Program-made: the position numbers and the translations under genes
The notes under the pieces: model-generated
The model's database searches: none
Seen by the model: only the letters and a program-made list of their open reading frames with translations
Told to the model about the DNA's origin: nothing
Shown: in pieces, positions 13,908 through 64,000 of the stretch
Layout of the letters: each line of letters starts with the position of its first letter
Numbering within the stretch: the first letter of the stretch is position 1
Source: Ilex aquifolium
Lineage: Eukaryota > Streptophyta > Magnoliopsida > Aquifoliales > Aquifoliaceae
Assembly (NCBI GenBank): GCA_951799425.1
Contig: OX637394.1
Span: 28,494,001 to 28,558,000 of the forward strand
Direction of reading: 5' to 3'
DNA: 64,000 nucleotides

Positions 13908-15243
13908 ATGTGGGGTCGGGACGTACAAAACCGACTAGTTAGACAACCCTTGGGCCCCAATAGGAACATTGACCAAGACCCACCTGAGGATACGGGTGAC
14001 AATTTTGAGAATGTAGGTGCAAACCCAAACATGCAAAGGGGTGGGGGAGTACAAGAACCTAGAATGCCCAATCCACGAATGCAATTTCCCCCTCCCATTA
14101 ATGAAGGGAACAACATCCACATTGAACCTCCGGCAAGGTCAATGAGGGATTTCCTTCAACACACACGAAGCACCACACCCTCATGCATCCTCCTTCCGAT
14201 CCAAGCTCACCTCTTCCTAGTTAAACCAGGGATGTTGCAACTACTTCCCACATTACACGGAATTGAAAAGGAGAACCCCTACTTGCACATCAAGTATTTC
14301 GAGGAGAAAGTTGCGACCTTCCTCACCAATCATGGTATGGAAGATATAGCTAGGCTGAAATTGTTCCCCTTTTCCATGAGAGATAAGGCAAAAACTTGAC
14401 TTAATTCCTTGAGACCTCGATCCATAACATCTTGGAACCAAATGCTCTCCGAGTTTTTAAACAATTTTTTTCCGGTGCATAAAACCACCGCTCTAAAGAA
14501 ACAAATTCAAAACTTTTCGGAGAAGTCCAATGAGAAATTCTACCAATGTTGGGATCGGTACAAGGAATTGCTACAATCCATCCCACACCATGGCTGTGAA
14601 CCATGGCAATTGGTGAGTTTCTTCTATGAAGGAATCACACCGGGCCATCGACAGTTCATCGACATGATGTGTAATGGGGAGTTTTTGAACAAAGACCCCG
14701 ATGAGGCTTTAGATTACTTTGATAAATTGGCACAGAATGCACAATCATGGGACATTACGGATCCCACCGATGTACCAAGGTCTTCTCCTCAAGGGAGTAG
14801 TCAAACTCATGGGGGAGGGATTTATGACTTGAGGGACCGGGAAGACTTGCTTTCCAAAATTGCCAAATTGTCTAGGAAGGTTGAGAGTCTTGAAGTCAAT
14901 AGGAGACACGAGGTGTCTAATGTTTCAAAAATAGAGGACTTTTGCTCAATTTGTGAGAGTGTGGAGCATTCCATATCGGATTGCCCCAACATTTCGGCGC
15001 TTAAGGAAGTGTACCACGAGCAAATTCATGCCTTTAACCAAACAAGGCAATCATTCTCTCCACACTCAAACACTTACAATGCGGGTTGGAGTAATCACCC
15101 GAACTTTAGTTGGAGAAATGAGAATCCCACTCCTCATGGTTCAAATGCCTATTCACCTCCCGTGCCTCCTAGGAAAAATCAATTTCAATCCCAAGGTCAA
15201 GCGTCTAGTTCCCAATACTCCCGGACCACTCCACAAGGGTATT
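13908..15243 (+). pseudogene. gag: Element C gag, first part
   Basis: The start is the ATG at 13908 (M-W-G-R-D), 139 bp after the primer-binding site. One frame runs to the insertion point of D with a single stop (TGA at 14397) where related copies have Trp. The capsid-like region is complete (F-F-Y-E-G-I-T-P near 14620). The zinc knuckle is intact (C-S-I-C, H, C; near 14944-14985) and a Pro/Gln/Ser-rich linker follows. This is the best preserved gag of the A/B/C group. It is interrupted at 15243 by D and resumes at 23828 after one copy of the GTATT target duplication. Confidence 0.92.
15239..15243 (+). repeat. Target-site duplication of element D, left copy
   Basis: GTATT here is repeated exactly at 23828-23832 on the other side of D. 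Confidence 0.95.
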
Positions 15244-21951: not shown

Positions 21952-21957
21952 AAAACT

Positions 21958-23827: not shown

Positions 23828-26800
23828 GTATTCATCAAACCCACCACCACAGAATTTTTCACCAAGTCAACCTCCAAAAAAAATTTTCCCAAGGACCATC
23901 CAATTCAGCCACATACCAACCTCCTCACAAAAGTAATTTGGAGGATATGGTTCATGCTTTCATTGAAAGCCAAACTACCTTCAATCAAAATCAAACCGCC
24001 ATCAACAATCAAAATGCCACAGCTTTTAATGACATTAGGACCCAACTCACAAAGTTGACAAACTCCATGGGGGCATCACAACAAGAGAAAGGGAAATTCC
24101 CCGCTCAACCCCAAGAGAACCCTAGAGGTCAACATGTCGTCGAGTCATCGGAGTCCGTAAGAGAGAGTTGTGAGCAACTCAAGGTGGTCACCACCCTTCG
24201 AAGTGGCAAGGAAATCGATAAGACCATTCTGCCAAAGGTCTCACATAAGTCACATTGCCAAATGAAAAATAGACCAAAGGTAACACCGAGGGGGGCTGAG
24301 GTGAGTGATGAGGTGGTTGAGAAAGAAAACTTGAGTGATGGAAATATGCATGTTTCCCCTATTCCTGCTCCTTTTCCTAATCGTTTGAAGCCACCTGTCA
24401 AGGTGGCTAATTATGCTGATATACTTGAAATTTTTAAGCAGGTGAAGATCAACATTCCACTCCTTGATGCCATAAAGCAAATTTCATCATGTGCAAAGAT
24501 CTTGAAAGACTTATGCACGGTAAAGAGGAGGCTCATTGTCCACAAGAAGGCATTCCTCACTGAGCAAGTGAGCTCAATCTTGAGGACAAACACTCCACCG
24601 AAGTTTAACGACCCCGGCTGCCCCACCATTGCCATAACAATCAGGAATTGTCAGGTGGAGCAAGCATTGCTTGATTTGGGTGCTAGTGTGAACCTCCTTC
24701 CGTACTTGGTGTACCAACAACTTCAGCTCGAAGAATTGAAGCCTACTCCAATCACGCTTCAACTGGCGGATCATAGTGTCCGAACACCAAGGGGAGTAGT
24801 TGAGGATGTTTTAGTGTAAGTTGATAAATTTTACTTTCTTGTTGATTTTATTATGCTTGACACTCACCCAGTTGCAAATCTTAGCTCCCAAATCCCCCGT
24901 AATACTTGGTAGACCTTTTCTTGCCACATCTAATGTTGTGATTAATTACAGGAACGGTCTTATGAAGCTAGCATTTGGGAACATGACTATGGATCTCAAC
25001 GTGTTCAACTTGTCCAAGCAACCGGGGGATGATGAGGAGGTGCATGAAGTAAATAGAATTGACACCTTGGTGGAAGAACACTTGGAACTTTTGGGAATGT
25101 TAAAGTTGAAAGAAGAGGAGAATGTTGATCTAGAAGAAGTTGATGAGCAAGAGGAATTAGAGAGTTTGAAAGGGGTAGAAAAGTGGATCCCTACATTTGA
25201 GAAGCTCCCACACCAAGACAAGAAGATTTTCCCATCAAATGAGCAAAAGCCCAATTTGGAATTGAAGCCATTACCTTCCCATTTGAAGTATGTATATCTT
25301 GGGGAACATGAGACATTTTCAGTTGTGATTAGCTCAACCTTGGATGCAAAGCAAGAAGAAGAGCTCTTGGAGGTGTTGAGGAGGCATAAGGGGGCGATTG
25401 GTTGGACAATTGTGGACATCAAGGGGATAAGCCCCATCATTTGCACACACCGTATCTATCTCGAAGAGGACTCCAAGCCTTCCCGACAACCACAAAGAAG
25501 ATTGAATCCAATTATGAAAGATGTGGTGAGGGAAGAGGTGCTTAAACTACTTGACGTGGGCATCATTTTTTCGATTGCTGATAGTAAGTGGGTTAGCTCC
25601 ACTCAAGTAGCACCCAAGAAGTCGGGAGTCACTGTGGTGGCAAATGAGGATAATGAGCTTATTCCAACAAGGGTGATCACCGGGTGGAGAGTTTGTATTG
25701 ATTATGGGAAACTCAACCTGTGTATAAGAAAAGACCACTTCCCATTGCCTTTCCTCGACCAAGTGTTGGAACGAGTAGTGAGGCATCTATTCTATTGCTT
25801 CGTAGATGGATACTCCGGCTACAATCAAATCGAGATTGCATTGAAAGATCTGGAGAAGACCACCTTCACTTGTCCCTATGGTACCTTTGCTTATCGTCGT
25901 ATGCCTTTTGGGCTATGTAATGCCCCAGGAACTTTTCAACGATGCATGATGGGGACTTTAGTGATATGGTGGAAAAGATTGTAGAGGTGTTTATGGATGA
26001 CTTCTCAGTCTTTGGGGATTCTTTTAGTGGATGCTTGGAGAATTTGGAGAAAGTTCTTGCTAGATGTGAAGAGAAGAGTTTAGTCTTGAATTGGGAGAAG
26101 TGTCACTTCATGGTGACGCAAGGAATTGTGCTTGGGCATATCGTCTCGGCGAAGGGGATTGAGGTTGACAAATCAAAGGTGAAGGCCATCTCTAACCTCC
26201 CTACACCGAGAATCGTCAAGGATATCAGGTCGTTTCTGAGCCATGCGGGTTTTTACCGTCGATTCATTAAAAATTTTAGAGTATTGGCCCGACCTTTGAC
26301 CAATTTATTGTCTAAGGATGTCCCATTTGAGTGGTCGGATAGTTGTGAGGCATCTTTTACAAAACTTAAAAGTATGCTTACCACACCTCCAATTATGCGA
26401 CCACCCAAGTGGGATTCACCTTTTGAGCTGATGTGCGACGCGAGTGATTATGCGGTCGGCGCAGTGCTCGGTCAAAGAGAGGACAATAAACCTTATGTAA
26501 TATACTACACTAGAAAAATGCTCAATGAATCCCAAATGAATTACACTACCATAGAAAAGGAGCTGTTAGTTGTAGTATTTACATTGGACAAATTTCGATC
26601 CTATATCATTGTTTCACCGATAATAGTCTATACTGATCACTCTGTTTTAAAGTATTTGTTGTCTAAGCAAGATGCCAAACCGAGACTCATTAGGTGGATC
26701 CTCCTACTCCAAGAGTTCAATTTGACAATCAAAGACAAGAAAGGAGTGGAGAACGTGGTGGCAGATCATTTATCTCGACTGGTGGTGCACGACGCCGATG

Positions 26801-28170
26801 AGCACATTCCTATCCTAGATTTCTTCCCTGATGAACATTTACTTTCAATTCATTATGTGTGTCCTTGGTATGCTGACATATGTAATTACCTTGCAACAGG
26901 ACAAATACCACCGCAGTGGAGCCCGGAGGATCGAAGGAGATTTATGGCGGATGTAAAGTACTTCTACTTCGACAACCCATATCTGTTCAAGTACTGTCAT
27001 TACCAAGTCATGCAGAGATGTGTATCGGAGAATGAACAGCGGGAAGTCCTTACATTTTGCCATTCAGAGGCATGCAGTGGACACTTCTCTGCAAAGAAAA
27101 CTTCGGCGAAAATCCTACAGTCAGGTTTTTACTGGCCCTCTCTAATAAAAAATTATTTTTCATTTTGTAAGGAATGTGATAGATGTCAATGTTTGGGTAG
27201 TGTGAACCGAAGGAACATGATGCCCCTCTCCCCTGTACATGTTATAAAAATATTTGATTGTTGGGGCATCGACTTCATGGGTCCTTTCCCTATGTCGTTT
27301 GGCTATCTATACATTATACTGACTGTGGACTACGTGTCCAAATGGGTGGAGGCTATCCCAACCAAGACTAATGACCACCGGGTCGTGGTCAAGTTTCTCA
27401 AGGAGAACATTTTTTTGAGGTTTGGGATGCCTCGTACAATGATAAGTGACGGTGGATCACATTTATGCAACAGACCATTTGCGTCTTTGGTGCACAAATA
27501 TGGTGTCACACATAAGGTATCAACCGCATACCACCCACAAACTAGTGGTCAAGCCGAGTTGGCCAATAGGGAGATCAAGAATATCTTAGAAAAGACGGTT
27601 AACTCAAATAGGAAAGATTAGTCAGGCAGACTGATTGATGCCCTATGGGCTTACCGCACTGCCTACAAGACTATTTTAGGCATGTCTCCCTATCGGCTCG
27701 TCTATAGAAAGGCTTGCCATTTGCCAGTTGAGATGGAACACAAGGCCTATTGGGCCATAAGGACCTTGAACTACAATTTGAGAATGGTCGGAGAGCATAG
27801 GAAGTTAGAATTGAATGAATTGGAAGAGATTCGAAGAGACGCGTATGAGAGCTCTAAAATTTCAAAAGAGCGGGCTAAGATCTTTCATGACAAATCCATT
27901 GTATGGAAGTCATTTGAGCCCGGCCAAAAAGTGCTCTTGTACAACTCTTGTCTCTCTATTTTTCAGGGCAAACACCGATCCCGTTGGGACGGCCCCTATC
28001 TTCTCAAGGTGGCCTTCCCTAATGGAGCGGTAGAAGTCACAAACCCCGAGAATGGCCAGACATTCAAGGTCAATGGCCAAAGACTTAAGCCATTTTTTGA
28101 GGGTTTTGAGGGACAAGGGGTGGAGGAGGATTTGACGGATCCGGTGTATCCCGACTTGGTGGAAGAGTAA
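23828..28170 (+). pseudogene. gag-pol: Element C rest of gag and pol (protease, RT, RNase H, integrase), lightly broken
   Basis: Resumes the gag linker of C after the right GTATT copy; a frameshift near 23880 moves to the frame of 23791-24819. Protease active site A-L-L-D-L-G-A-S near 24668. Stop at 24817, frameshift near 24895, then the protease end (I-L-G-R-P-F-L near 24902) and RT. Another shift near 25950 leads to the frame 25942-27621. It has the catalytic F-M-D-D (D codons at 25996 and 25999), RNase H (L-M-C-D-A-S near 26430), and the integrase zinc domain (H-S-E-A-C-S-G-H near 27063; C-K-E-C-D-R-C near 27170). The integrase acidic residues are in W-G-I-D-F (27262), I-S-D-G-G (27443) and A-E-L-A-N-R-E (27555). 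Stop TAG at 27619. The last frame 27682-28170 ends the integrase C-terminus. All catalytic residues survive, so inactivation seems recent. Confidence 0.93.
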
Positions 28171-28395: not shown

Positions 28396-28408
28396 AAGTT
28401 GGGGGGTG
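28396..28408 (+). other. Internal polypurine tract after pol (element C)
   Basis: AAGTTGGGGGGTG lies about 230 bp after the pol stop, following GAGGATAATG. It matches the polypurine tracts found next to LTRs (for example TAGGTTGGGGAGTG at 63311) and the internal tract of F at 58988. No LTR follows here. Confidence 0.65.
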
Positions 28409-28794
28409 AGGTGCACCATTTGTATGATACACCAATGTTTTGGAATTCTTTGTGGATAATACCAGTTTTTGTGGTGAACATTCACCTTTCACATAAATAC
28501 AGATTTTTGTTCACAATAGTGCAAATTATGGAGAAATTTTGAAAATTTTTGTGAAAAATATCTGAACGTTGATTTGTATTCCCTTATTAAGAGTGCTTGG
28601 GTTAGTTGATAGGTTGTTTGTTGTTTTGAACCCTGAGCACATGAGCATATTATAGAAGTTAATCCTATGCGTGAGTATCACATATATATCTGCTTTTGAA
28701 CTCAACCGTATGTTCTCCTTGAATGTGTAATTTTAGCAATTTACGGATTGAATTCATATTTAGGCTTGACATAAATAGTGGAGATGAGTAAGAA

Positions 28795-29600: not shown

Positions 29601-30267
29601 CATGAACTTCATTTTTTCGATTACATGTGAGCACACTTTGTTTTGTACACAAGATTCTATCTCACATGTACACACGGAGTGCATGCCAGGATAACTAGAT
29701 TGTTTTTCATTGTTAAGAGTGATCTTTGGTGAGTTTTGCATTGAAGCTAATTTGGCTAGCCATTCTAATGTGAATTATGTTGCGTAAATGCTCAAATTAC
29801 TTGTACAATCCACACACACACGAGTTTGAAAATGAATGTGTAGGTGCATACTTTAGACTAGTATTTAAGGCTATAATGATGTTCATGTGTGCTTGGTTCG
29901 GGTAGTTGAACGACGTGTTAGGTAGCCCTATGCTTTAAGGATGGGGGAATATTGCTCAACTTTTGATATTTGATAAGTTTTAGGAATACCATTGCTATTT
30001 GAATTCATGTTTCATATTTTGGGTATTCATTTTGGTAGTTAAATTAGAATTTCATGTCTTATACCTTGAAAACATCAACCTTAAATCATGTTGTAATTTC
30101 GGAAATGACTTTGGGCATGATCATTCGATTGTGGTTTATACCAGTGGTTCAAGTTTTTGGTAGGTTTGATGTCTTTGGAAGGGTGTAAAAATGTTTTGGA
30201 GTTGAGGAGATTTGGATTGGATGAGAATTTTTGAACAAAGGATTGGTTTTGCAGCAAAGGCAAAACC
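29601..30267 (+). other. Non-coding tract between module and ORF2 promoter (element C)
   Basis: AT-rich sequence without a supported ORF or repeat that I recognise. Confidence 0.6.
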
Positions 30268-30355
30268 TTCCTGAAGGTTTTGTCTACTGGAATTTTTAAC
30301 CCAAGCAGTAAGCAAAACCTTCCGGAAGGTTTTGCCCAGAAACCTAAAAACGAGG
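30268..30355 (+). promoter_or_regulatory. Internal promoter-like region of ORF2 in C with TTCCGGAA palindromes
   Basis: A 16-bp palindrome AACCTTCCGGAAGGTT (core 30320-30327) and a one-base variant (TTCCTGAA, 30268-30275) lie about 240 bp upstream of the first ATG of ORF2. The perfect copy and its right flank (TTTTGCCCAGA) are the same as in the LTR of C near 32755. A weak TATA-like CCTAAAAACG follows at 30342. Confidence 0.6.
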
Positions 30356-30564
30356 GCTTCAAGTTAGAAAATTTCGAAAAACCTTTTGCATTTCCAATCC
30401 ATTTCTTACTTCCAGACCCTTTCCTCTCCTCCTACTCTCTTCTAACCTTCAAACTACTTCCCCCAAACCTCAAATTGCTTAAGTTCTCTTGATTAGGGTT
30501 GAGATTTAGAGGGTTTTAGCCAAAAAAATACCAAGTTTTCTACACAAACCCTAGTTCTTCATTC

Positions 30565-31949
30565 TTGCCCATATTTCTCAGTTCTCCTTTGATCTTTCTC
30601 AAACCCCTCTACTCTTGTGTGATGGCTCGTGTGAATGGAATGTCTTCGGAAGTTTTTGAGTCGTTGGAAAGCATTTGGCGGATGTTTTTTATGGTTCTAG
30701 GTGTTGGGGCATTGTTGATGCTCATGGCTCGAACCAAGAACGCCGACACCGGGTCTCCTCCACCCCCCTCTGGCTCTACTTCCCGGAAGAGGACCGGGAA
30801 GGGTCCTAGCTCCCAAGATAGGGCGGAGTGGAGGACGAAAGTGAGACACGACGCCCGCAGGCAACGTATTGAGGAGAAAGGAGTAACTTGTGAGCGATGG
30901 GTGGATAAAACCTCTCTTGGGCCTACAAATGAGGTAGTGAAAATTATTGAAAAACGAGGTTTGAATATTTGGTTCAAAGAAGTGAAGGGGTATAATTTAG
31001 ATATGTGTCGTGGGTTCTTCCAAAAGTTGGTGGTTTTTGGAGAAAATGGGAGTAAGTTAAGGACGAATGTGAGGGGCAGAACATTTGATGTGACCCCAAG
31101 CTCAATAGCCACTGCAATGGGCTACAAGAGACCTCCCCCAACCACCGAAGTCTACTCACACAATGTAAAAGGGGGTAGGACTCTCAAAGAGTACGTAGCC
31201 CTCACCTATGAGGACTCGACCACGTTCACGGGAACAACGTTGGTTGGGAGCCTCAAGTATGATTACGGGGTTATGAGTAAGATTCTTCACACTAACATGA
31301 TGCCCCGGGGTTCGGAGAAGAGCCCGAACATTGAGAAGTTGGCGTTACTTCATGCTTTCATGACAGGAGTTACCATTGACGTGGCATACTTCATTTGGTT
31401 GGAGATGCGGGTGTTTGCCCGGCTTGCAAAGCCAAAGGCAAATCTCCTTTTTGGGCAGCCTTGTCACCCGTCTCTGTGAACTAGCCGATGTAGAATTCGA
31501 TGCACATGATACACTGCTCCCCTCAGGTTCTGGAGCCATATGCAAGTCCAACAGTCTGAAGAGGGTTGCCAAGACTGGGGGAGAGAGAGCTAGGGCTCCA
31601 GATGCACAGCCTTCAGATGCTGGGACTTCTTCGTCAGCACCACCACCAGCTCCTGTCTGTACCTTGGCACAGCGTATGGACACATTGGAGTCCAATGTGC
31701 ACACGATGTCTGCCATGATTACAAGGGTCTTTGAGCATATTTTTCTGGGTGAGCTTGTCCCCGGAGGACCACCACCACCCCCCACAGCCTTTAGTTGGAC
31801 CCTCAGTTTTTATTCATGTGCCCTCAGTGACTGTGGAGATGGATGATGATGATAATGGTGATGACAATGTTGAGGAGGAGATAGAGACCGAGTCTGAACC
31901 TGAGGACGGGGGTGCTTTTGAATTTAGAAAGAGGACTGATACGGACTGA
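30565..31949 (+). pseudogene. Element C ORF2 ('putative plant transposon protein' / Athila env-position ORF), frameshifted
   Basis: This is the ORF downstream of pol, where Athila-type elements carry their so-called env-like gene. ATGs are at 30565, 30621 and 30723; the last (M-A-R-T-K-N...) starts a basic, Pro/Ser-rich N-terminus. The body has the pattern seen in F: R-G-L-N-I-W-F, then C-R-G-F-F-Q-K-L, then V-R-G-R-T-F-D-V-T-P-S-S-I, typical of the plant 'putative transposon protein' family. I see no signal peptide or clear membrane anchor, so a true envelope role is doubtful. Two frameshifts (about 31450 and 31800) break it, moving to the frames of 31376 and 31731. The C-terminus holds a short coiled-coil-like stretch (R-M-D-T-L-E-S-N-V) and an acidic tail. 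The gene has its own palindrome-bearing upstream region. Function unknown. Confidence 0.75.
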
Positions 31950-32266: not shown

Positions 32267-34070
32267 GATTAGCACAAAAACATGACAGAATTTGGATGCT
32301 AATATGTCGTTTTATGCTTGCCTTTGTCATGAAATTGGGGAGAAATTCATTTAAACTTCGTTTTGATGGAGTTTTGTGTAAATGCAGGAAATATGATGTA
32401 AATAGCTTGAGTTAAGCCCCCATTGAAGTGGTTGAAGTCAATGAAGATGAAGAGGTAGCTTAAAGGAAGGCTTCGAGGGTAAAGAGATCAAGAAAATGCA
32501 AATTGGTTGAAAACCTTCCGGAAGGTTTGGGTGAAAACCTTCCGGAAGGTTTTGCCTTGGATTTCTTTTTCACTGCCAAAACCTTCCAGAAGGTTTTGTC
32601 TACTGGAGTGAAACCTTCCGGAAGGTTTTGCCTACTGGAGTGAAACCTTCCAAAACGTTTTTTCTACTGGAATGAACCTTCCGGAAGGTTTTGCCTATTG
32701 ACTGCTTCATTTAACTGTTCATGCACAAACATGCCGAAAGGTTTCTGTCGACCTTCCGGAAGGTTTTGCCCAGATTGCCCAGACAGCCTGCAACTCAAGC
32801 TCTGCCATTTGAGGGTCCCACTTACACTTCTCCAACAGATCTCCTGACATCCCCTGCACGTCTAGGAGCCTCCCCTCACCTCTACTTAGACTTGGATGGC
32901 TTTTGCATTAATGAGGAGAAGAGAGATGAGGCATGGCAAGAGAGAAAGGCTAGACTTGTCCTAGCCTGTACCATCCCATCCCTTTCAGACCCCATGATTG
33001 GAATCATATCACACAGCATTGGGGAGGGCTCCAGGGACATTTTTGGCAAGCTTCACCACCATTTTTGAGCATTAGCTAATATACATTGTAATATAGAGAG
33101 AGAGAGTCTAAAGAAGAAGATGAATAGTGCTACAGAGAGAAGTTAATGTTTTTTCCATTTTCTTTCCATACATTGCCTTGTAATCCATTGTAAGACCTCT
33201 CTAAGCTTTGTTTGAAGTCTTGAATGCCATTTATTTCAAGTTGTTTTTTAAGTTTAATCTTCTATTCAAGCTTTCACCATTAATGCGTTCATGTTCTTCA
33301 ATTTCTTAGTTTTAAAATGGGTATTAAATGCATTCTTTTAGTTTATGTTTTCTTGCATTAACTTAGCTAAAATCTTCATTGCTCTACAATGTATTTCCAT
33401 TACATTAGTGTCTTTCCTTTAAGCATGAGTAGCTAAATCTTTAAGTTGGCTAATCCAAGGGAGACCTCTTCTTGGGTATGCCATTTCAACTCATCTTCTT
33501 TCCTCCCCTCGGTGTACGATGGTTCAGTTTGACTGGGTTGAGTGTGGACACGGTTGTGAGTCTTTGATATCCCATAGACTTGTCATGGGTTATGCTTGGA
33601 TCCTCACTTCCACCTCGTCCCGAGCTTCCCACGAATCAATCGTTCATCTATGCACCATTGGAGGAAGGTTTCGAGTTGACTTGGCATTCCCATTGGAGTG
33701 AACCTTTTGGATTAGCCAACACTTGTTTCCAATTTCATTTTCATCACAATACAACCCACAAACCAAACTTCAACAACAAAAGATTTTACATTTTTTTTAC
33801 CACAATCACCTTCAAGACGATTCACCTCCTTCCCTGAGGAGACGACCTTGGAGTATTCTCCAAGTAAAACACGACACACAAAAGTCTTCTTGCGCTTGGG
33901 AAGCATTTTTGTACACACGCACTCGTTTCACATTATATTTCATTCCACCTTTCTGTTGCCCTTTCTTTTGACATCATCCCAAGGGAGAGTGACACTCCCT
34001 TCACACATACACCATATACACATTTGAGGGTGATGTCCGGAGGTAAGGGAAACAACAACGGAAACAAACA
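32267..34070 (+). repeat. Element C 3' LTR (complete)
   Basis: Begins TGATTAGCAC directly after the polypurine tract and ends near ...GAAACAAACA at 34070 (end inferred from the CA rule). It contains eight TTCCGGAA-type palindromes, a TATA-like GCATTAATGAGG near 32906, a GA repeat near 33097, and the conserved U5 blocks shared with A and B. It supplies the two segments missing from the 5' LTR. Confidence 0.85.
32517..32762 (+). promoter_or_regulatory. TTCCGGAA palindrome array in LTR of C
   Basis: Perfect cores at 32517, 32540, 32617, 32679 and 32755; decayed cores at about 32584, 32648 and 32731. Most sit inside the 16-bp palindrome AACCTTCCGGAAGGTT or a slightly shorter form. Spacings between centres are about 23-44 bp. 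The array lies about 140 bp upstream of the TATA-like sequence. Confidence 0.7.
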
Positions 34071-40120: not shown

Positions 40121-40199
40121 GTACCGGTACACAGTACCGGTACGCCCGAACCAGTAGCTAAACCGTACCGGTACAGCGTACCGGTACGCCCGATAAAAG
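40121..40199 (+). promoter_or_regulatory. Promoter of the chromovirus solo LTR: four GTACCGGTAC palindromes and TATA
   Basis: Perfect 10-bp palindromes at 40121-40130, 40134-40143, 40165-40174 and 40178-40187: two pairs, each with 13-bp spacing. They are followed at once by a TATA-like GATAAAAG (40192-40199). Confidence 0.7.
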
Positions 40200-41182
40200 T
40201 CGGGATTTTGGTGTTTTAAAACACCCTTTTAAGCCTCATTTGACCCATTCTTCCATCCCACTCTCACCCCAAACATCTTAGAGCCCTAAGAGAAGAGAAA
40301 AGGAGAGAAAAACACAAAGATCTTGAGAGAATTAACCCTTATAGAGATCAAAACCGAAATTTCTCAAGAACACCATTCTTCTACTCTCTTCTTCTACACT
40401 TTCACTACACCCTTACCACACACCTCTTGGAATCCTAGAGAGAGTCTTAAAAAAGAATAAAGAATGAGAAAACACAAGATCAAAAGGGAGAAACAAAGGA
40501 TTTAAGAGTGATTCAAGATCAAACCCTAGATTTCAAGAACACCAAGGTAGGGGTTTTCTTCCATTCTTTTACATTGAGGCTAGGTTTATTTATATGTATC
40601 TCTTCACTCTAAATGTTATATGTATGCTATTAAATCCTTAATTCTTGCTATTCTTGCAATTGATTCCATGTGGAAAATATTGTGATTGTTGGGTAACCCT
40701 TGAATCTCCTTGCTTGCTACCAAACCCTAGTCTTCAAGGGAAATGTGTTTGTCGCTTGACTTCTCCTTTGTTATTGATTTCAACACATGATTGTCCCTTT
40801 GTTGTGAATTTTAAGCTTGATATTCAATACTTGATATTCTTTATTCTTGGTTCCAAGACTTGAATGTTCTTTTGGTTTGATTTCTAAGCTTCATAATCAT
40901 TTGTTCTTGATTTCACACCTTGATAGTCGTTTGTTATTTATTTTCATACACGATTGTTCCGTTAAATCCTAATTTCTCCGTTATCCATGACTTTCAAGCT
41001 TGGTGCGCCTTTATTCTTTATACTCCAAGCTTAATATTCATTTGTAATGATTCCAAGGTTTGATTACTCATATGTTCTTGATTTCAAAACTTTAGTGTTT
41101 CATATTGAACAACAAAATGGTATTTATGGTGATCTCATGTATTTTTCTTAGTTGGTTGTGGAATTGTTACATGTTATATTTT

Positions 41183-42481
41183 GGGGGTGGAGCTTACCCT
41201 AAAATATGTCACCTACCGAAAGAATGGGGGTGGAGGTTACCCTAAAGTATGCCACCTACCGAAAGAAGTGTGAGAGGTTCCTTGTAAGGATGCTCACCCC
41301 TTCCCAAGAGGTTCCTTGTAAGGATGCTTGGGAAGCAAGGATGATCTAACGGGGGGTGGAGGTTACCCTAAAGTATGCCACCTACCGAAAGAATGGGGGT
41401 GGAGGTTACCCTAAAGTATGCCACCTACCAAAAGAAGTGTGAGAGGTTCCTTGTAAGGATGCTCACCCCTTCCCAAGAGGTTCCTTGTAAGGATGCTTGG
41501 GAAGCAAAGATGATCTAACGGGGGGTGGAGGTTACCCTAAAGTATGCCACCTACCGAAAGAATGGAGGTGGAGGTTACCTTAAAGTATGCCACCTACCGA
41601 AAGAAAGGGGGGTGGAGGTTACCCTAAAGTATGCCACCTACCAAAAGAATGGGGGTGGAGGTTACCCTAAAGTATGCCACCTACCGAAAGAATGGGGGTG
41701 GAGGTTACCCTAAAGTATGCCACCTACCGAAAGAAGTGTGAGAGGTTCCTTGTAAGGATGCTCACCCCTTCCCAAGAGGTTCCTTGTAAGGATGCTTGGG
41801 AAGCAAGGATGATCTAACGGGGGGTGGAGGTTACCCTAAAGTATGCCACCTACTGAAAGAAGTGTGAGAGGTTCCTTGTAAGGATGCTCACCCCTTCCCA
41901 AGAGGTTCCTTGTAAGGATGCTTGGGAAGCAAAGATGATCTAACGGGGGGTGGAGGTTACCCTAAAGTATGCCACCTACCGAAAGAATGAGGGTGGAGGT
42001 TACCCTAAAGTATGCCACCTACCGAAAGAATGGGGGTGGAGGTTACCCTAAAGTATGCCACCTACCGAAAGAAGTGTGAGAGGTTCCTTGTAAGGATGCT
42101 CACCCCTTCCCAAGAGGTTCCTTGTAAGGATGCTTGGGAAGCAAGGATGATCTAATGGGGGGTGGAGGTTACCCTAAAGTATGCCACCTACCGAAAGAAT
42201 GGGGGTGGAGGTTACCCTAAAGTATGCCACCTACCGAAAGAAGTGTGAGAGGTTCCTTGTAAGGATGATTGGGAAGCAAAGATGATCTAACGGGGGGTGG
42301 AGGTTACCCTAAAGTATGCCACCTATCGAAAAAATGGGGGTGGAGGTTACCCTAAAGTATGCCACCTACCGAAAGAATGGGGGTGGAGGTTACCCTAAAG
42401 TATGCCACCTACCGAAAGAAACAAAGATGATCTAAAGGGAGGTGGAGGTTACCCTAAAGTATGCCACCTACCGAAAGAATT
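41183..42481 (+). repeat. Composite minisatellite: about 19 units of 43 bp with a recurring 83-bp spacer
   Basis: The basic unit begins GGGGGTGGAGGTTACCCTAA and ends with ACCTACCGAAAGAAT. Groups of 1 to 5 units are separated by a spacer of about 83 bp, itself holding two copies of AGGTTCCTTGTAAGGATGCT. I count five full spacers (about 41264, 41438, 41735, 41857, 42073), one shortened (42241) and one reduced to about 20 bp (42418). This is a higher-order repeat inside the transcribed part of the LTR. Confidence 0.92.
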
Positions 42482-43064
42482 GTTGGAAATTGTGTATGGT
42501 GGACTAGATTATATTTGGAAATGGTTTGCGAACTGTATAGTGGTTTCACTTATTTATTCAATTATTGTTGTTCCTTAAACTTGAGATCCATCAAATGTCT
42601 TGGTTTTACTTCAAAAGTTATATATGATATTTGTGAAATGAGACCGACTTGTTTTACATGTTTTCTAAACCTTATTTGAGTTTGGGAGGATTTTCCTACA
42701 GAGCTTAGTGCTCACCCCCTACAAACCAACCCATTTTTCAGGTGATGCTGTAAAAGATGATCGGTTAGAAGACTGGTAGGGGGATCCGGAGGGGGATATC
42801 TCGACGGTCCTTCTTTGTATTAGATTGAAGGGTTATTTTGGAATCATGTAAAATATAATCTTTTGTTATTCCGCTGCTAAGTTACGTTTAATTCTTTTGG
42901 GATGTAATTGCCATGATTTGACTTATTCTATTGGGATAATGCGATGAACATGATATATGATGAATGAAATTTCTTTATTTATGGAATTTATTAGTCGCTC
43001 TCATGTTATGAATGTTCTTGGATAGTAATGCCGTCCAGGTTGTGTTTCGGGGCGTTACAGAAAC

Positions 43065-50810: not shown

Positions 50811-50975
50811 TCCTCCCCCCTTAAGAGAATTTCATCCCCGAAATTACAAACACACATGCACATATAACAAAATGCAAATGAAACAAGTCATATACTAAAC
50901 TATGATTACACATGTACCTTCATCCTCAAACAAGAATGGATAGGTTGTGCTAATATTCTTCTCGCGCTCCCACGT
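50811..50975 (-). pseudogene. pol: Extreme 3' end of chromovirus pol (element E)
   Basis: On the - strand a frame reads E-R-E-K-N-I-S-T-T-Y-P-F-L-F-E-D-E-G, the C-terminal tail that follows the integrase/chromodomain in Tekay-type elements. Further on comes N-F-G-D-E-I-L just before the polypurine tract. The upstream part is removed by the insertion of F at 50976. Only a few dozen codons are visible, so the family call rests mainly on the combination with the LTR. Confidence 0.55.
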
Positions 50976-52913
50976 TGATTAGCACTTAAAATTAGCATTT
51001 TACTATGCCGTTTTAAGACTAATTGTACTTTGATGGAGTTTAAGTGATGTCATTTCAGGCCCTAAACTGAACAAGGACTCAAGAACAACAAGTACCACAC
51101 TTGAATGTAACACCAACACATTAGAGCACAAAATTGGAGAAGCTTGGAGCATAGCCAGAAATTTCGAACGCCAACTCACATTCGAACGTCCACATTGAAC
51201 TGTAGCAGACCTGACTGCTGAGAGAAGGTGTGTTTTAGCTAGGAAAAAAGACTGAAGCTCTGAGGCACTTGAGTGTCACGTTCGAACGCCAACTCACGTT
51301 CGAACGTGCACTCGAGTTGATTGAAGACCAGACTACTGCATAGAGTGAGGAAATGAACTTCACAGATGACCACAGGCCACTTGAGTGAGAAGGTCAGACC
51401 ACATCTGGCGTTCGAACGCCCATAGCGCAAAGACAAAAGAAATGTTTGAACGGCAGACAACGTTCGAACTACCATAAAGCAACAACAGAGACAACGCTCG
51501 AACACCAACTCACGTTCGAACGTTCTCCACAGACTGGCTGTAGAGTGGTTGGTTTTTCACTTGGACTTGGGCGGCATACACTATTCCTTCACCCCCTATT
51601 GTCTCCTCCTCTTGCCTATAAATACTCTCATTGCTGGAGAGCTTAAGAGGAGAAGTAGAGAGGTTGATGGAGGCTTAGACTCCCACTCATATTGTAGATT
51701 TAGCTTGCATTTCCTTGTATGAAGTATTTATTTTAGAGATTAGTTTGGCTTTAGTCCAACATCTCTTTGCTTGTTATAAAAGTAGTTTTATGCTTATGAT
51801 TTCACTTACATGCATAGAAGGGAGTTAGTTCATCTTTTGGTTGAGGAAGCAACCCTCCATTCCTTGGTTGAGGAAGCTACCCTCCAAATGTGACTAGCTT
51901 TCTTCTACTTTTATTGTTTATGTACTTCACTTCCATTGCTTGAGCTTCTTTCTTTCTTAGAAGAGTGAAACTCTTCCACTTTTCTAGAGCTTTACCAAAG
52001 CCGTGAAGGGTGGAACGTGATTCACTCATTCTTTGTTAAAGATTGGCTCCTTGTTTATTGTTATTTCATCTTGTAAGTCCTCTACTTGGAGGGATGAGAA
52101 TCACCCACTTTTCTAGCTTTACCAAAGCCATGAAGAGTGAGTAGTTTCTCATTCACTCTTTAGTAAGAGGAGAAGGGCATGTATAAGTTATCCAGGAATT
52201 ATATTTGTGCATTGTTCTTATGCTTAACATTTATTTCTTCTTGCTTATTGGATGATTGATTGCATCTAGCAAAGCTAAGGTACTTTGTATAACCGTGGTC
52301 TCTTTCTATGACACGGATGACTCTTGCATATAAAGACACATCGGTTCAAGGCAAGTACCCCGGCTAGATCTTCATGACTACCCTTCAATCCTCCCCCTTA
52401 TTGTGCTTCACTTAAAGAATGGAATATTAATGTCATGATTGGATGTTTTGTAGAAACACTTGCTTGTTTGTAGACGGGTTAAGTCTCGGCACAGGCAATT
52501 CTTGTAAACTTCTAGAAAGACATCGGAATCATGTTCTTAATTCTCACAGTCCATCTTTATCTTCTGGTTAACTTGTTGTTGACACGGGAGTTAATTGAGT
52601 TATCAAGCACAAGTATAATAAACCGGATAATTAACTACATGTCCATATCCTTGAACTAAAGAGTGACTCTTTTTTTCATTAGAGCTTATCTCATATTTTG
52701 TTAAGAAAACTCTCTTGGAAAGAATCTTATATTTTGTCCAGGAAATCTCACACCTCACAACAAATCTCAAGGGTTACAATCAATAGGTTTCCACCACTTC
52801 TTATCTCAAAAATACCAACAAAAGTTCCCTGTGGATTCGACTCCGGACTCAAACCGGATTATTACTACAGCTTGACCGCCTGCACTTGGGTGTACACATT
52901 TCGGATCAAGTCA
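50976..52913 (+). repeat. Element F 5' LTR
   Basis: Begins TGATTAGCACTTAAAATTAG, as does 63325. The end is put at 52913 (...GGATCAAGTCA), by analogy with D, where CA is followed by AGTTTTTGGCG; 52908 is the alternative. It holds a TTCGAA palindrome array and TATAAATA at 51617-51624. Confidence 0.88.
51163..51624 (+). promoter_or_regulatory. Promoter of F: TTCGAA palindrome array and TATA box
   Basis: TTCGAA cores at 51163, 51181, 51281, 51299, 51411, 51463 and 51515; decayed at about 51445 (TTTGAA) and 51497 (CTCGAA). Three pairs are exactly 18 bp apart (51163/51181, 51281/51299, 51497/51515). The fullest palindrome is ACGTTCGAACGT. TATAAATA follows at 51617. Confidence 0.75.
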
Positions 52914-52919
52914 AGTTTT

Positions 52920-52937
52920 TGGCGCCGTTGTCGGGGA
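52920..52937 (+). other. Primer-binding site, tRNA-Asp type (element F)
   Basis: TGGCGCCGTTGTCGGGGA, one mismatch (T for C at position 12) to the complement of the tRNA-Asp 3' end. Confidence 0.92.
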
Positions 52938-53023: not shown

Positions 53024-56000
53024 ATGACTGAGGGCACTCCTCACTATCAAAATTTGCCGGCAGAATCTTATGAGTCTGTGAATCCGCCTGAACCAAATTC
53101 ACCTAGATCAGTAGCAGACTCTTTTGAGAGTAATATGGCAAATAATGAGAGAAACGGAGAAGTCCCTATGAGAGAGGAGGAAGTGCCTAACAATCAAACT
53201 TTGCGGGATTACTTAAATCCCACAAGAAACAGTGTCCCCTCCTGTTTTATATTTCCTGAAAATGCTCCCCCCTTTACTGTAAAGTCGGGGACAGTGTAGT
53301 TATTACCCGTGTTTCATGGATTGTATGCAGAAAATCTATATCTGCATATAAAAGATTTTGAGGAAATGTGTGGAACATTTCAAGACAATTCTGAACTAGC
53401 CAAGATGAAACTTTTTTCTTTCTCTTTAAGGGACAAAGCTAAACAATGGCTAAATTCTTTAAAAGCTTTTTCAATACCTAACTGGCAGGCATTGCAAAAT
53501 GAATTTTTTAGAAAGTTTTTTCCTCTACACCGTACAAATGCACTAAAAAGGCAAATCATGAATTTTGCGGTTAAAGAATGAGAAACTTTTTACCAAAGTT
53601 GGGAGAGATTCAAAGATCTGCTCCAATCCTGCCCACATCACGCTTTTGAGAATTGGACTTTGGTAGGATTTTTCTATGACTCCTTACCCTCTAGACTACG
53701 TCAGTTTGTCGAAATGATGGCCCAAGGAGAATTTATGGGAAAAAGTCCGGAGGAGGCATTCAATTTTTTTGACACCATATCTGACAGTTCTCAGATGTGG
53801 GACTCAGCCTCTCCTACCACTGTAGATGCCAGACCATCTACTTCCCAAGGAGGTAAATATGTCTTGAGAGAGGATGAGGACTTGAGAGCAAAAATGTCTA
53901 CGTTGTCTCGAAAGCTTGAAGCTTTAGAGATGAAGAAAGTCCATCAAGTTGATGTTAGCTCTTCAACATAACAAGTGTGTGGAATCTGTGCGCTAACAGG
54001 ACACCCTACTGGGGAGTGTCCTACCATCCCAGCGTTCAAAGAGGTCTTGTTGGAACAAACACATGCAGTTTCCAATTTCAACAAGCCTTACTCCAACCCA
54101 TACTCTGAAACATACAATCTAGGGTGGCGAAACCACCCTAACTTCAGTTGGAAGAATACACAACCAATGCCCATGAACCAACAACAAGGTTCATACCCAC
54201 CACCTCAAGGACTTCCCGCATATCAACCATACCAACCACCATAAAAGAGGAGCCTTGAGGACACACTGAATCAGTTCATGCAAAGCCAAATGAACTATAA
54301 CCATAATTCCACACAGGCTTTCGCTGATTTCAAAACCCAGACCACTCAATCTTTTGAGGATCTTAAAAGCCACATCCAAAAATTGACTCAATCCATGGTC
54401 ACACACGAAAAGGGCAAGTTTCCTGCCCAACCAAAGCAACCCCAAGGCCAATTCCATGTGGGGAATCCTTCAACAACAGGAAACACACAAGACTAAGCCC
54501 AAGTTGTCACTACACTAAGAAGTGGCAAAGTGATTGACAAGACCATCAGAAACATACTCATTCCAAAGCCAAGACCTGAGTCAATCCCAGTCAACCCATC
54601 ATCTAAGCCTGAACCAATTAAGACTGAACTTGAGAAAGAACCTGAGCCTATGATTGAACAAGAGCCAGAACCTTCTGAGGAAAGAGAACCTTCGTGTTCC
54701 ATTCCTGCTCCTTTTCCTCATAGACTCAAAACCAAACAGAAGTTGAAAATCAGCCTAAAATTTACGAGCTTTTTAAGCAAGTAAATATCAACATCCCACT
54801 TCTGGATGTAATCAAACAAGTTCCGTCTTATGCCAAGTTTCTAAAAGACTTGTGCACAGTCAAGAGAAGCCAGAATGTCCAAAAAAGAGTCTTCCTAACA
54901 GAACAAGCCAGTGCCCTTCTTCAACATAAAACCCTTCCAAAATACAAAGACCCAGGGTGTCCGACTGTGTCATGTATCATTGGAAACTTCAAAATTGAAC
55001 AAGCACTGTTAGACCTTGGAGCCAGTGTTAATTTGCTACCCTACTCTGTCTATCAACAGTTGGGTCTGGGTGAACTCAAACCCACTTGTGTCACACTCCA
55101 GTTGACCGACAGATCTGTCAATACCCCTAGAGGCATTGTTGAAGATGTGCTTGTCCAAGTAGACAACTTTGTCTTCCCTGTTGACTTCATTGTTCTGGAT
55201 ACTCAGCCAGCGATACATTCGGAGAACCAAATTCCCGTCATTTTTTGTCAACCTTTCCTAGCAACTTCCAATGCACTAATCAATTGCAGGAATGGAGTCA
55301 TGAAATTAACTTTTGGGAATATGAATCTCGAACTGAACATTTTCAATATTGCTAAACATCCAGAAGAAGAAAAGGAAGAAAGGGAAATAAACCCCATTGA
55401 ATCTTTGATACAGGAACATCTAAATGACACATTCTGTGAGGACCCTACTGAATCTTCTCAGCTAGAGTTCATCTCATCCGAAACAATAGATGATGACCCA
55501 AATCCACCAAGTTTCCCTACTCATGCTGTTGAGACATGGGCCCCCAAATTCGAAGAGATTTCACCAAGTGGCACAAAGTCAATCTCATCAAGTGTTAGGC
55601 CACCAAAGCCTGAATTGAAACCTCTCCCATCTGACCTCAAATATGTATTCTTAGGAGAGGACGAGTCATACCCAGTGGTAATTTCATCTAAGCTCACAGA
55701 CTTGCAAGAGTCTAAACTGATTGAAGTTCTTCGAAGCCATAAAAGCATCATTGGGTGGACCATCGCTGACTTGAAAGGTATAAGCCCGTTAATCTGCAAT
55801 CATGCTATATACCTTGAAGAGGATTCAAAACCCTCTCGTCAAATGCAGCGACGACTAAACCCTCACATGAAGGAAGTGGTGAGAACTGAGGTACTCAAGC
55901 TCTTAGATGCAGGGATAATCTTCTTCATCTCTGACAGCAAGTGGGTTAGTCCAACCCAAGTTGTGTCCAAAAAGTCAGGGGTCACAGTGGTCAAAAATGA

Positions 56001-58587
56001 TGCAAATGAATTGGTACCAACTCGAGTCATCACAGGATGGCGAATGTGTATTGACTATCGAAAACTCAATTTGGTCACTAGAAAAGATCATTTTCGTCTT
56101 CCATTTCTTGACCAAGTCCTAGAGAGAATTGCAGGCCATGCATTCTACTGTTTCTTAGATGGGTATTCTGGATACAATCAAATTGAGATAGCACTAGATG
56201 ATCAGGAGAAAACAACCTTCACATGCCCCTTTGGCACCTTTGCATTCAAAAGGATGCCATTTGGACTTTGTAACGCTCCTGCAACATTCCAAATATGTAT
56301 GCTAAGCTTGTTCAGTGATATGGTTGAAAAAAATTCGGAAGTATTCATGAATGATTTCTCTGTATATGGTGATTCCTTTGATTTGTGTCTGATCAATCTG
56401 GAGAAAGTGCTAATCAGATGTAAGGAAGCCAATCTAGTGCTCAATTGAAAAAAATGTCATTTCATGGTAACACAAGGCATTGTCCTTGGTCACATTGTGT
56501 CGTCTGAGGGCATGAAAGTTGACAAGGAAAAAATAGATCTGATTGGAAATTTGCCTGCCCCTAAGACTGTAAAGGATATCCGATCATTCCTAGGGCATGC
56601 AGGTTTTTACAAGAGATTCATAAAAGATTTCAGTACCATAGCAAAACTCATGTGTCATCTTCTAAGTCAGGACGTAATCTTTGATTGGAATGAAGCATGC
56701 CAGAAAGCCTTTGACAAGCTGAAAGGCATGTTAATTTCTGCTCTAATAATGCAACCCCCTGATTTTAATCTACCCTTTGAACTAATGTGTGATGCAAGTG
56801 ATTATGTTGTAGGTGCTGTATTAGGACAGAGAAAAGATAAGAGACCCCATGTGATTTACTATGCAAGCAAAACTTTGAATAATGCTCAAATGAATTATTC
56901 AACAACTAAAAAAAGAATTGTTTGTTGTAGTTTTTGCGCTGGAAAAATTCCATTCTTATCTTGTTGGTTCTTCTATTACTGTATTCACTGATCATGCAGC
57001 CCTAAAATTCTTGCTCACAAAGAAGGACGCCAAGCCAAGACTCTTGAGATGGATACTCTTGCTCCAAGAGTTTGATCTTGTCATCAAGGACAAGAAAGGT
57101 GTCGAGAATGTGGTGGCAGATCATATGTCTAGACTAACATATGAATTTCGTGAGGATGGACTGCCAATCAATGAGAAATTCCCCGATGAACAACTGTTCA
57201 TGATTGATAAGACACCATGGTACGCGGATATTGCTAACTTCCTTGCTACTGGTACACTCCCTCCATCCTTTACCATGATGGACAAAAAGAAATTTCTGAG
57301 GGAGGTTCGTAACTTCTTTTGGGAGGATCCCTACGTATTCAAGTACTGTAAGGATCATATCATAAGGCGTTGCATCCCCGCTCATGAAAGCAGCCAGGTA
57401 ATAACATTTTGTCATTCTGAAGCATGCGGTGGCCATTTTTCATCAAGAAAAACCGCTGCAAAAATATTGCAGTGCGGATTTTACTGGCCCACACTTTTCA
57501 TAGATGTCCATGCCTTTTGTTTAACTTGCGATAGATGCCAAAGGTTGGGAAGCATTTCTAAAAGAAACATGATGCCCTTAAACCCCATTCTGGTAATTGA
57601 AATTTTTGACTGTTGGGGCATCGATTTTATGGGACCGTTTCCCCCTTCCTTTGGCTATCTATACATTTTAGTGGTGTAGACTATGTATCCAAATGGGTTG
57701 AAGCAATTCCATGCCAAAACAATGATCATCAAATAGTGATCAAGTTTTTGAAAGAAAATATTTTGTCCCGGTTTGGAATTCTGAAATCAATCATAAATGA
57801 TGGGAGTGCTCATTTTTGCAATCGTCCCTTCTGAAATTTGATGAAAAAATACTTGATTTTTCACAAAATTGCAACCCCTTATCACCCACAGACCAGTAGA
57901 CAAGCTGAACTAGCTAATCGGGAGATCAAATTAATTTTGAAAAAAATGGTGAATCCAGACCGCAAAGATTGGTCGTTAAGACTAACTGATGCACTCTGGG
58001 CATACCGTACTACTTTTAAAACAATTTTAGGCATGTCTCCTTATCGATTAGTCTATGGAAAGCCGTGTCACCTACCTGTGGAATTGGAACATAGGGCATA
58101 CTGGGCTATTAAAGCAATGAATTTTAACTTGGAAAAGGCTGGACTAGTAAGGAAACTCCAGATAAATGAATTGGAGGAATTGAGAAATGAAGCATTTGAA
58201 AATGCTAAGATTGCTAAAACCAGGATGAAAATTTTTAATGACAAAAACATTGTGCGGAAATCTTTTGAGCTTTCTCAAAAAGTCCTGTTATTTAATTCAA
58301 GACTCCGCCTCTTTCCTGGTAAGTTGAAGTCAAGATGGACTGGGCCTTACATTGTCAAAAAGGTGTTTGGACATGGAGCAGTTGAAGTGGAAAACTCATC
58401 AAACGGTAATATCTTTACTGTTAACGGTCAGCGGTTGAAACCATTTTTGGAGGATTTTGTTAAAAATGTGGAAACCATTCTTTTAATGGAACCAGAAGAC
58501 TCCTCCGAGATTTGTGCCTACCGACACTCACGTGGATCGGGTCAGGAAAAATCTAACCCAACCCGACCCACTGGGGCGCCTTTATAA
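53024..58587 (+). pseudogene. gag-pol: Element F gag-pol, broken
   Basis: Start ATG at 53024. Gag: T-L-R-D-Y-L-N-P near 53200, F-F-Y-D-S-L-P near 53670, zinc knuckle C-G-I-C..G-H..C near 53978-54020. Stops at 53297, 53579, 53969, 54242 and 54494, most readable as C-to-T or G-to-A changes. Frameshift near 54775. Protease A-L-L-D-L-G-A-S near 55010. RT runs in the long frame 54850-56448; its catalytic motif reads F-M-N-D (near 56346), one Asp replaced by Asn, so RT would be inactive even without the stops. Stop at 56446, frameshifts near 56920 (RNase H) and 57670, stop at 57832 (integrase). Integrase D, D, E residues lie in W-G-I-D-F (57617), N-D-G-S (57798) and A-E-L-A-N-R-E (57907). The C-terminus ends at 58587. 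More decayed than the pol of C. Confidence 0.93.
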
Positions 58588-59858: not shown

Positions 59859-60174
59859 TTCGAACGCCAGGTGACGTTCGAACGTTGGCTGCTTGCAGTA
59901 CTCAACCTCTGATGAAGCCTCTGATGGAAGTAAAAAGTACTGGGAGCTCAGCTCATTCGAATGCCAATAGACTGTTCGAACGAGATTAACGTTCGAACGC
60001 CAATAGACCGTTCGAAAGAAGAGAACTTACAATACTTTGGCCTCTAACAGAACTCAAAAGTATTGGGAGCTCACCACATTCGAACGACAACCATGTTCGA
60101 ACGATCTGTTTAAAATCCTTCTAGACACGTTCAAACATTACCCACGTTCGAACGTCACGACTCAGGCTATAAAA
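59859..60174 (+). promoter_or_regulatory. Internal promoter of ORF2 in F: paired TTCGAA palindromes and TATA box
   Basis: TTCGAA cores at 59859, 59877, 59956, 59975, 59992, 60011, 60079, 60096 and 60147, and TTCAAA at 60130. Successive members of each group are 17-19 bp apart. TATAAAA is at 60168-60174, 16 bp after the last palindrome. Part of the array is a tandem duplication of about 122 bp (59919 and 60041). The first pair is nearly the same as the pairs in the LTR of F, including the CGCCA after the first core. Confidence 0.72.
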
Positions 60175-60390
60175 GCCTGGTTCGTCTTCTTCATTTCAAA
60201 ACCACCCAAAAAAATCCCTAAAAACCGAAAAACCCTTGGTGACTCTTCACTACCCAGGCCCCAAAACACCTATCATTCTCCATTTTTACCAAAAATCAAC
60301 CCTCCCAAGACTATTCCCATAACAAAAAGCTCCATTTTCACAAAGAAATCCAAGATTTCAAAGCCCTCAAACTCAAAAACCGAAACCACC

Positions 60391-63324: not shown

Positions 63325-64000
63325 TGATTAGCACTTAAAATTAGAATTTTACTATGCCGTTTTAAGACTAATTGTACTTTGATGGAGTTTAAATGATGTC
63401 AATTCAGGCCCTAAACTGAACAAAGACTCAAGTACCACACTTGAATGTAACACCAGCACATTAGAGCACAAAATTGGAGAAGCTTGGAGCACAGCCAGAA
63501 CGTTCGAACGCCAACTCACGTTCGAACGTCCACATTGAACTGTAGCAGACCTGACTGCTGAGAGAAGGCGTGTTGCAGCTAGAAAAAAAGACTGAAGCTC
63601 TGAGGCACTTGAGTGTCACGTTCGAACGCCAACTCACGTTCGAACGTGCACTCGAGTTGATTGAAGACCGGACTATTGCATAGAGTGAGGAAATGAACTT
63701 CACAGATGACCACAGGCCACTTGAGTGAGAAGGTCAGACCACATCTGGCGTTCGAACGCCCATAGCGCAAAGACAGAAGAAACGTTCGAACAGCAGACAA
63801 CGTTCGAACGACCATAAAGCAACAACAGAGACAACATTCGAACGTTCTCCACAGACTGGCTGCAGAGTGGTTGGTTTTTCACTTGAACTTGGGCGGCATA
63901 CACTATTCCTTCACCCCCTCTTGTCTCCTCCTCTTGCCTATAAATACTCTCATTGTTGGAGAGCTTAAGAGGAGAAGTAGCGAGGTTGATGGAGGCTTAG
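63325..64000 (+). repeat. Element F 3' LTR (runs off the window)
   Basis: 676 bp matching the first part of 50976-52913. TTCGAA cores at 63503, 63521, 63621, 63639, 63751, 63785, 63803 and 63837; TATAAATA at 63939-63946. Compared with the 5' LTR it lacks 9 bp near 63430 and one 18-bp palindrome repeat near 63837. Confidence 0.92.

Follow-up and report, generated by a model that had tools for sequence, protein, structure and literature searches.

Why does a retrotransposon carry, just upstream of its env-like open reading frame (ORF), a cluster of palindromes that repeats the one in its own long terminal repeat (LTR)? The expression of plant env-like ORFs has been debated, and splicing, stop suppression and an internal promoter are the routes named in the accessible text of the Sirevirus study (PMC2829016). 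A sequence-only reading of the window, by which we mean the whole 64,000-nucleotide stretch analysed, had proposed for such a frame in element F, ORF2, a promoter of its own, either descended from that of the LTR or evolving alongside it, with one factor for both transcripts. Element F spans 50976 to approximately 65235, its 3′ end lying beyond the window, and its LTRs of about 1.9 kb are 94.9% identical to each other. CACGT flanks the element on both sides, the second copy following the 3′ LTR outside the window. The features of F are as follows.

50976–52913, forward strand: 5′ LTR, 1,938 bp, with CACGT just before it at 50971–50975
51163–51520, forward strand: palindrome array of the 5′ LTR, seven exact TTCGAA, with pairs at 51163/51181 and 51281/51299 (18 bp spacing)
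51617–51624, forward strand: TATAAATA of the 5′ LTR, 3′ of its array
52920–52937, forward strand: primer binding site, TGGCGCCG...
54850–56448, forward strand: pol piece with reverse transcriptase (Pfam), a sub-threshold protease match lying upstream of it
56918–57679, forward strand: pol piece with RNase H and integrase zinc-binding domain (Pfam), downstream of reverse transcriptase as in gypsy order
59859–60152, forward strand: internal palindrome array, nine exact TTCGAA and the near core TTCAAA
60168–60174, forward strand: TATAAAA ahead of ORF2, inside GGCTATAAAAGCC
60175–60390, forward strand: ATG-free leader from TATA to ORF2, with no ATG in the 17 copies scored
60391–61056, forward strand: ORF2, an open stretch of 221 amino acids with its ATG at 60391, Pfam PF20167 (Transposase_32)
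63325–64000, forward strand: portion of the 3′ LTR within the window (LTR end at about 65235), eight exact TTCGAA
63939–63946, forward strand: TATAAATA of the 3′ LTR, 3′ of its cores

In F, Pfam domains follow the order reverse transcriptase, RNase H, integrase zinc-binding domain, and in a second element of the window, G, the order reverse transcriptase, RNase H, integrase core. Both carry the extra PF20167 frame, ORF2, between pol and the 3′ LTR, and both have integrase after reverse transcriptase, which is not the copia order. Gene order and the extra ORF fit an Athila/Calypso-type Ty3/gypsy retrotransposon, to which type F probably belongs. Its ORF2 is shorter in the window than in several other copies, whose frames stay open longer. 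Six bases separate the LTR end from the start of the primer-binding-site-like TGGCGCCGTTGTCGGGGA, a putative match to tRNA-Asp. For Calypso and Diaspora, the accessible text of one account gives a gap of 5 bp (PMC1142308).

The internal array of F is as the sequence-only reading described it: exact TTCGAA cores start at 59859, 59877, 59956, 59975, 59992, 60011, 60079, 60096 and 60147, the near core TTCAAA lies at 60130, and TATAAAA follows upstream of ORF2. The LTRs hold seven (5′ copy) and eight (3′ copy) exact cores, all ahead of TATAAATA. Common to the internal array and the LTRs is a 10-bp palindrome, CGTTCGAACG, which in the LTR occurs partly in pairs 18 bp apart, and two pairs of the 3′ LTR each share 27 of 30 bases with the first internal pair. 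The claim that the two places share one arrangement holds for the palindrome, the pairing and the following TATAAATA or TATA, but not for the distance from last core to TATA, which is 15 bp at the internal site and 96 bp in the LTR. Chance clustering of cores is ruled out: TTCGAA occurs 37 times in the whole window against a shuffle mean of 15.4, none of 100 shuffles reaching at least 37, and the 800-Mb genome contains 14,412 copies of the paired 10-mer, a count that takes in LTRs and any other family with the same word, against none of the reversed pattern, likewise a palindrome pair but without CpG.

Searching the genome with the F internal region gave 41 matches from 40 scored candidates, of which the first 20, the window copy included, were fetched. 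Each holds 7–10 exact internal cores (one of the nine in L012 being outside the array); in U3, 3–9 exact cores were counted in the 16 copies that have a recognisable 3′ LTR, the other four being without an LTR match. CGTTCGAACG is present in all 20 internal pieces, with 127 occurrences in total, as well as in 10/10 further internal pieces and 16/16 U3 pieces, and TATAAATA was found in 15 of the 16 U3 copies. Internal neighbours are mostly 17, 18 or 19 bp apart, and LTR pairs 18 bp. At each of the two sites the symmetry reaches two bases past the core, at 81% and 89%, before it falls, which makes the palindrome one of 10 bp in both places.

The cores are also better conserved than their surroundings. 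When sites were picked in a single copy and identity was computed among the rest, a procedure in which the choice of exact cores leaves a small bias, A/T positions within cores were 99.2% identical internally (20 copies) and 98.9% in U3 (16 copies). The remaining A/T positions reached 95.5% and 95.4%, a divergence four to six times higher than that of the cores. Ten further copies, picked among 150 scored ORF2 matches at 80–81% ORF2 identity, have 7–10 cores in a largely unchanged layout and keep TATAAA, although L074 is without one stretch. Over all 30 copies, CTATAAAAGCC is found in 27 and TATAAA in 29.

Outside the cores and their immediate flanks, the internal and LTR sequences of F have little in common. 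With cores masked, the two were aligned in five copies and compared with 400 shuffles each, of which 4, 6, 79, 97 and 10 reached the score, and an earlier form of this alignment was equalled by 75 and 297 of 300. Since shuffles often meet these scores, a common origin within F is not demonstrated, and a derivation of the internal array from U3, judged outside the cores, is at most suggested.

Element G, the second of the same type in the window, has pol matches at 24315–28135 and a 3′ LTR from about 32266. It repeats the design with another word, TTCCGGAA.

30265–30330, forward strand: internal array of G upstream of ORF2, with ACCTTCCGGAAGGT at 30317 and, at 30265, a copy with one mismatch
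30565–31479, forward strand: ORF2 region of G (PF20167), with its first ATG at 30622
32513–32764, forward strand: 3′ LTR array of G, ACCTTCCGGAAGGT at 32513, 32537, 32613, 32676 and 32751

The same 14-mer thus stands five times in the LTR and again ahead of ORF2; the G palindrome measures about 16–18 bp, and neighbours are often 22 or 24 bp apart. Twenty G copies were hand-picked across the identity range among 40 scored with a query that included the array. Together with the window copy they make 21, of which 16 have a usable LTR of their own; L042 (LTR match of 33 bp, LTR word not seen), L044 (without LTR match) and L054–L056 were left out. All 16 own-LTR pieces contain the exact word, as do 15 of the 16 internal ones. 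Among 14 pieces hand-picked from 130 scored matches to the ORF2 protein, a search that made no use of the array, 12 have the exact word at an ORF2 identity of 65–74%, and in the others the words have decayed (L088) or the region is rearranged (L089). L054–L056 had appeared to be exceptions, having the G word internally and GTACCGGTAC in the LTR, and were rejected as such, as the foreign LTR begins before the place of their own. They are TACCGGTA-family LTRs nested in G-type elements, within the linker or ORF2.

Several further observations concern G. A purine tract, AGTTGGGGGGTGAGG, at 28397–28411 between pol and ORF2 is perhaps akin to the extra polypurine tract (PPT) that the accessible text of one study reports for Athila4 and Calypso (PMC2829016). 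Comparison of G ORF2 with a protein database gave 940 candidates, none at E 0.001. Four ORF2 matches follow one another in equal steps of about 9.79 kb at G000:C19:13214140-13244391, as if in tandem elements, and G-word clusters recur every 6–26 kb near a contig end (G000:C1:60647-192047), perhaps as a block of one family.

A third family, H, and an element without ORF2, E2, are represented in the window by LTRs.

3461–5073, forward strand: H LTR, TACCGGTA at 3724, 3756 and 3769
15243–17113 and 21957–23827, reverse strand: E2 LTRs, 1,871 bp, 100% identical

The H palindrome is at least 8 bp long, with the word TACCGGTA. A genome search with the H LTR scored 40 places, some of them same-strand pairs 11.3–11.6 kb apart. 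The internal sequence of H comes from one copy on another contig, L093, as a piece of 1,151 bases lying upstream of its 3′ LTR; it contains TACCGGTA three times, followed by an ORF2 with 45% identity to that of G. Array and spacer together match the H LTR in 84 of 104 columns. The preceding 300 bases align to the G internal region with a score of 102, and downstream of the array the G–H alignment is weak (score 19). With a 201-base H internal query, 40 places were scored, of which 11 lie 1,988–2,072 bp ahead of a same-strand H LTR; among the matches listed, others precede an H LTR by 744 bp and about 3.8 kb.

E2 has a single ORF of 836 amino acids, comprising gag and a stretch resembling the protease part of F pol; neither reverse transcriptase nor ORF2 was seen in it, and it is a young, apparently non-autonomous element. 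Its LTR holds CCGTCCGGACGG twice, 20 bp apart, just upstream of TATAAATA, with the word GTCCGGAC, and its interior holds no copy of that word. Elsewhere in the window, 40121–40178 carries GTACCGGTAC four times and then GATAAAAG, resembling H over only about 70 bp at the array; this is perhaps another LTR family with the H word. Many overlapping direct repeats occupy 41182–42483.

The word accordingly differs from family to family, TTCGAA in F, TTCCGGAA in G and TACCGGTA in H, and in all three ORF2-bearing families examined the internal word is that of the family's own LTR. Internal arrays scored 49 (F), 34 (G) and 61 (H) against their own LTRs, values that none of 300 shuffles reached, against 10–17 with the LTRs of the other two families and 8–17 with the E2 LTR. 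The upper values of these ranges differ in weight: the 17 of F internal against the E2 LTR was reached by 8 of 300 shuffles, and the 17 of H internal against the G LTR by none, so that some similarity between families is left. In the F and G internal and LTR pieces scored, no word of another family among F, G, H and E2 occurs. Genome-wide, the word pairs of G and H number 10,361 and 32,843, counts that likewise take in LTRs and any other family with the word, and their reversed patterns 1 and 1. Between the closer families G and H, the DNA upstream of the internal site can still be aligned, and the words differ at both sites. ORF2 identity between F and G is 27%, against 63% and 66% in pol for the two longest G matches. 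The expected concerted change of LTR and internal words from one family to the next is thus borne out in F, G and H, and three words, each matching its own LTR, strongly support the proposal that the internal promoter is derived from, or evolves together with, the promoter of the LTR.

The stretch between array and ORF2 bears on where transcription may start. From 30 bases past the TATA to the ORF2 ATG, 17 F copies contain no ATG, against 10.7 expected from shuffles, a guide value given that the copies are related; L010, L022 and L028 were left out of the 20, their TATA or start codon being unrecognised. Upstream of the F array, ATG is about as frequent as chance (90 against 96.4 expected). 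The deficit is weaker in G, where 33 copies hold 35 ATG against 49.6 expected and 22 are ATG-free, in stretches that are longer where the start codon was unrecognised; upstream of the G array there are 183 against 182.5. The window copy of G has no ATG at 30221–30622, nor has the H copy at 391–649 of its own numbering. An ATG-free leader that starts at the array fits a transcription start just downstream, and would be compatible with a splice acceptor there as well. Support for the proposal that ORF2 has its own promoter is indirect: conserved cores, the TATA of F and an ATG-poor leader beginning at the array favour it, but no TATA box was seen at the internal arrays of G and H.

Taken together, we consider it probable that ORF2 has a second promoter inside the element, that this promoter shares a factor with the LTR, and that the two arrays are kept matched by sequence exchange. 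A family-specific cluster of palindromes, many in close pairs, just upstream of the ORF2 leader would repeat the cluster of U3, and one DNA-binding factor would most likely bind both, activating, or keeping unmethylated, the genomic and the ORF2 promoters alike. We infer a protein dimer because the sites are palindromic, an activator because many sites precede a TATA box, and a single factor because one element has the same word at both putative promoters. That U3 and the internal site exchange sequence is suggested by the match of the whole module in H; such exchange may proceed, for example, by template switching during reverse transcription or by gene conversion, and together with shared selection would keep the clusters alike within a lineage. 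Where the recognised word switched between families, it would have switched at both places.

This explanation has to be weighed against four others. The internal array could be a functionless remnant or duplicate of U3, and ORF2 could be expressed through splicing of a transcript begun in the LTR. In H, array and U3 are clearly related (84/104), and among relatives splicing is reported for Bagy2 (PMC7264820) and predicted for BAGY2 and Athila env (PMC2829016), as far as the accessible texts of these studies go. A passive remnant, however, would hardly have core A/T positions four to six times less diverged than other A/T, nor arrays kept at 80–81% ORF2 identity in F (10/10) and at 65–74% in G (exact words in 12/14), nor arrays at the same place in three families, and we regard it as quite unlikely. 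The palindromes might instead work through hairpins, formed in RNA or in single strands, that serve the processing or packaging of RNA or the making of siRNA, rather than as protein-binding sites in DNA; neighbours could pair across short loops, given their spacing of 17–19 bp in F and often 22 or 24 bp in G, and U3 is also copied at the RNA 3′ end. This appears improbable, since one LTR core, present in 12 of 16 copies, lies 34 bp from its nearest neighbour, and since in the 5′ LTR the TATA, and hence the transcript start, comes only after the array. Known host sites offer another explanation, heat-shock elements (HSEs) being TTCnnGAA and the core of the pol III B box GTTCGA: the G word contains TTC-CG-GAA, an HSE-like dimer, and the F word resembles the B-box core. 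In F, on the other hand, TTC and GAA adjoin without a gap, and the H and E2 words (TACCGGTA and GTCCGGAC) fit neither site, so that both were rejected as a common explanation and this reading is highly improbable. Some oomycete heat-shock factors do bind ungapped TTCGAA, according to the accessible text of one study (PMC11267843), and no fitting plant factor for TTCGAA was found in the literature searched, as far as its texts were accessible.

What distinguishes the fourth explanation is the origin of the factor. The arrays may be targets of an element-encoded protein, the product of ORF2 or another, which activates or de-silences its own family and changes together with the word. Each family examined has a word of its own, jointly different at both sites, and ORF2 diverges faster than pol (F–G 27% vs 63% and 66%); this joint difference of word and fast-evolving ORF2 would fit an element-encoded factor. 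Foamy viruses show that one activator, Tas, can serve the LTR and an internal promoter of its own family, and VANC of the VANDAL elements is a precedent in the accessible text of its account (PMC5735166). E2, however, has paired palindromes in its LTR without any ORF2. The H-like word at 40121–40178, with H likeness confined to about 70 bp at the array, favours a host factor. We know of no DNA-binding domain in PF20167, which also counts against an element-encoded protein, and the explanation as a whole is unlikely. Its boldest form would be a private two-promoter regulon of Athila-type elements, in which an element protein, perhaps that of ORF2, would read a family-specific CpG-centred palindrome at both promoters, that of the LTR and the internal one, act back on the gene that encodes it and oppose silencing. 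A joint switch of protein and word would give rise to new families, in parallel to Sireviruses; we hold this to be rather unlikely.

If the explanation that we prefer, a second promoter sharing a factor with the LTR, is right, the env-like ORF has a promoter of its own that a shared site links to the LTR, as in foamy viruses, and plant LTR elements of both great superfamilies would have the same design. Each factor could then be fished out with its family-specific word, and the joint difference of the words would be a natural experiment on regulator change in a retroelement. With tens of thousands of paired sites in this one genome, the words may also supply host genes with a store of binding sites.

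Among known systems, foamy viruses, which are animal retroviruses, have one activator for two promoters in one retroelement, as proposed here for F. Gomez-Orte in 2013 reportedly described an accessory gene with its own promoter in Grande. Like F, Grande is a gypsy element with an extra gene at its 3′ side, but it belongs to another lineage. Among viral contigs, eight stretches fit a pattern, none of them a relative. VANDAL elements have dense family-specific motif arrays that change together with VANC, but they are not LTR elements, their 9-base motif is not palindromic, and the binding protein is known, as the accessible text states (PMC5735166). For Athila6A, an Athila element, a promoter of the ENV ORF is named and start sites are said to be defined; the accessible text of that account mentions neither palindromes nor a resemblance to the LTR (PMC4977677).

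A two-place palindrome design is described for the Sireviruses of the Ty1/copia superfamily, which according to the accessible text have family-specific palindromes in many copies upstream of the TATA in the LTR and upstream of ENV, whereas ENV-less members have a linker without palindrome copies, and an internal ENV promoter has been suggested (Bousios et al., 2010; PMC2829016). These two precedents, Athila6A for the promoter and Sireviruses for palindromes in two places, contradict the remark of the sequence-only reading that nothing of the kind was known in Athila-type elements; for matched LTR and internal palindromes in such elements, no account was found in the open-access literature searched. 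F shares the Sirevirus design fully, with palindromes of one word in the LTR and ahead of env together with a TATA; G and H share the matching words, but no TATA was seen internally. E2, without ORF2, has the pair in its LTR and none inside, and fits the rule for ENV-less Sireviruses (PMC2829016). The differences, within the accessible text, are that Sireviruses belong to the other superfamily, that their cores are mostly CGG-CCG and the motif is called Sirevirus-specific, and that the account gives no sister families alike in their flanks but jointly different in word, such as those found here (PMC2829016). An internal env promoter is in itself already known; what is new here is the Ty3/gypsy case of matched palindromes at the two places and the concerted difference of the word between families.
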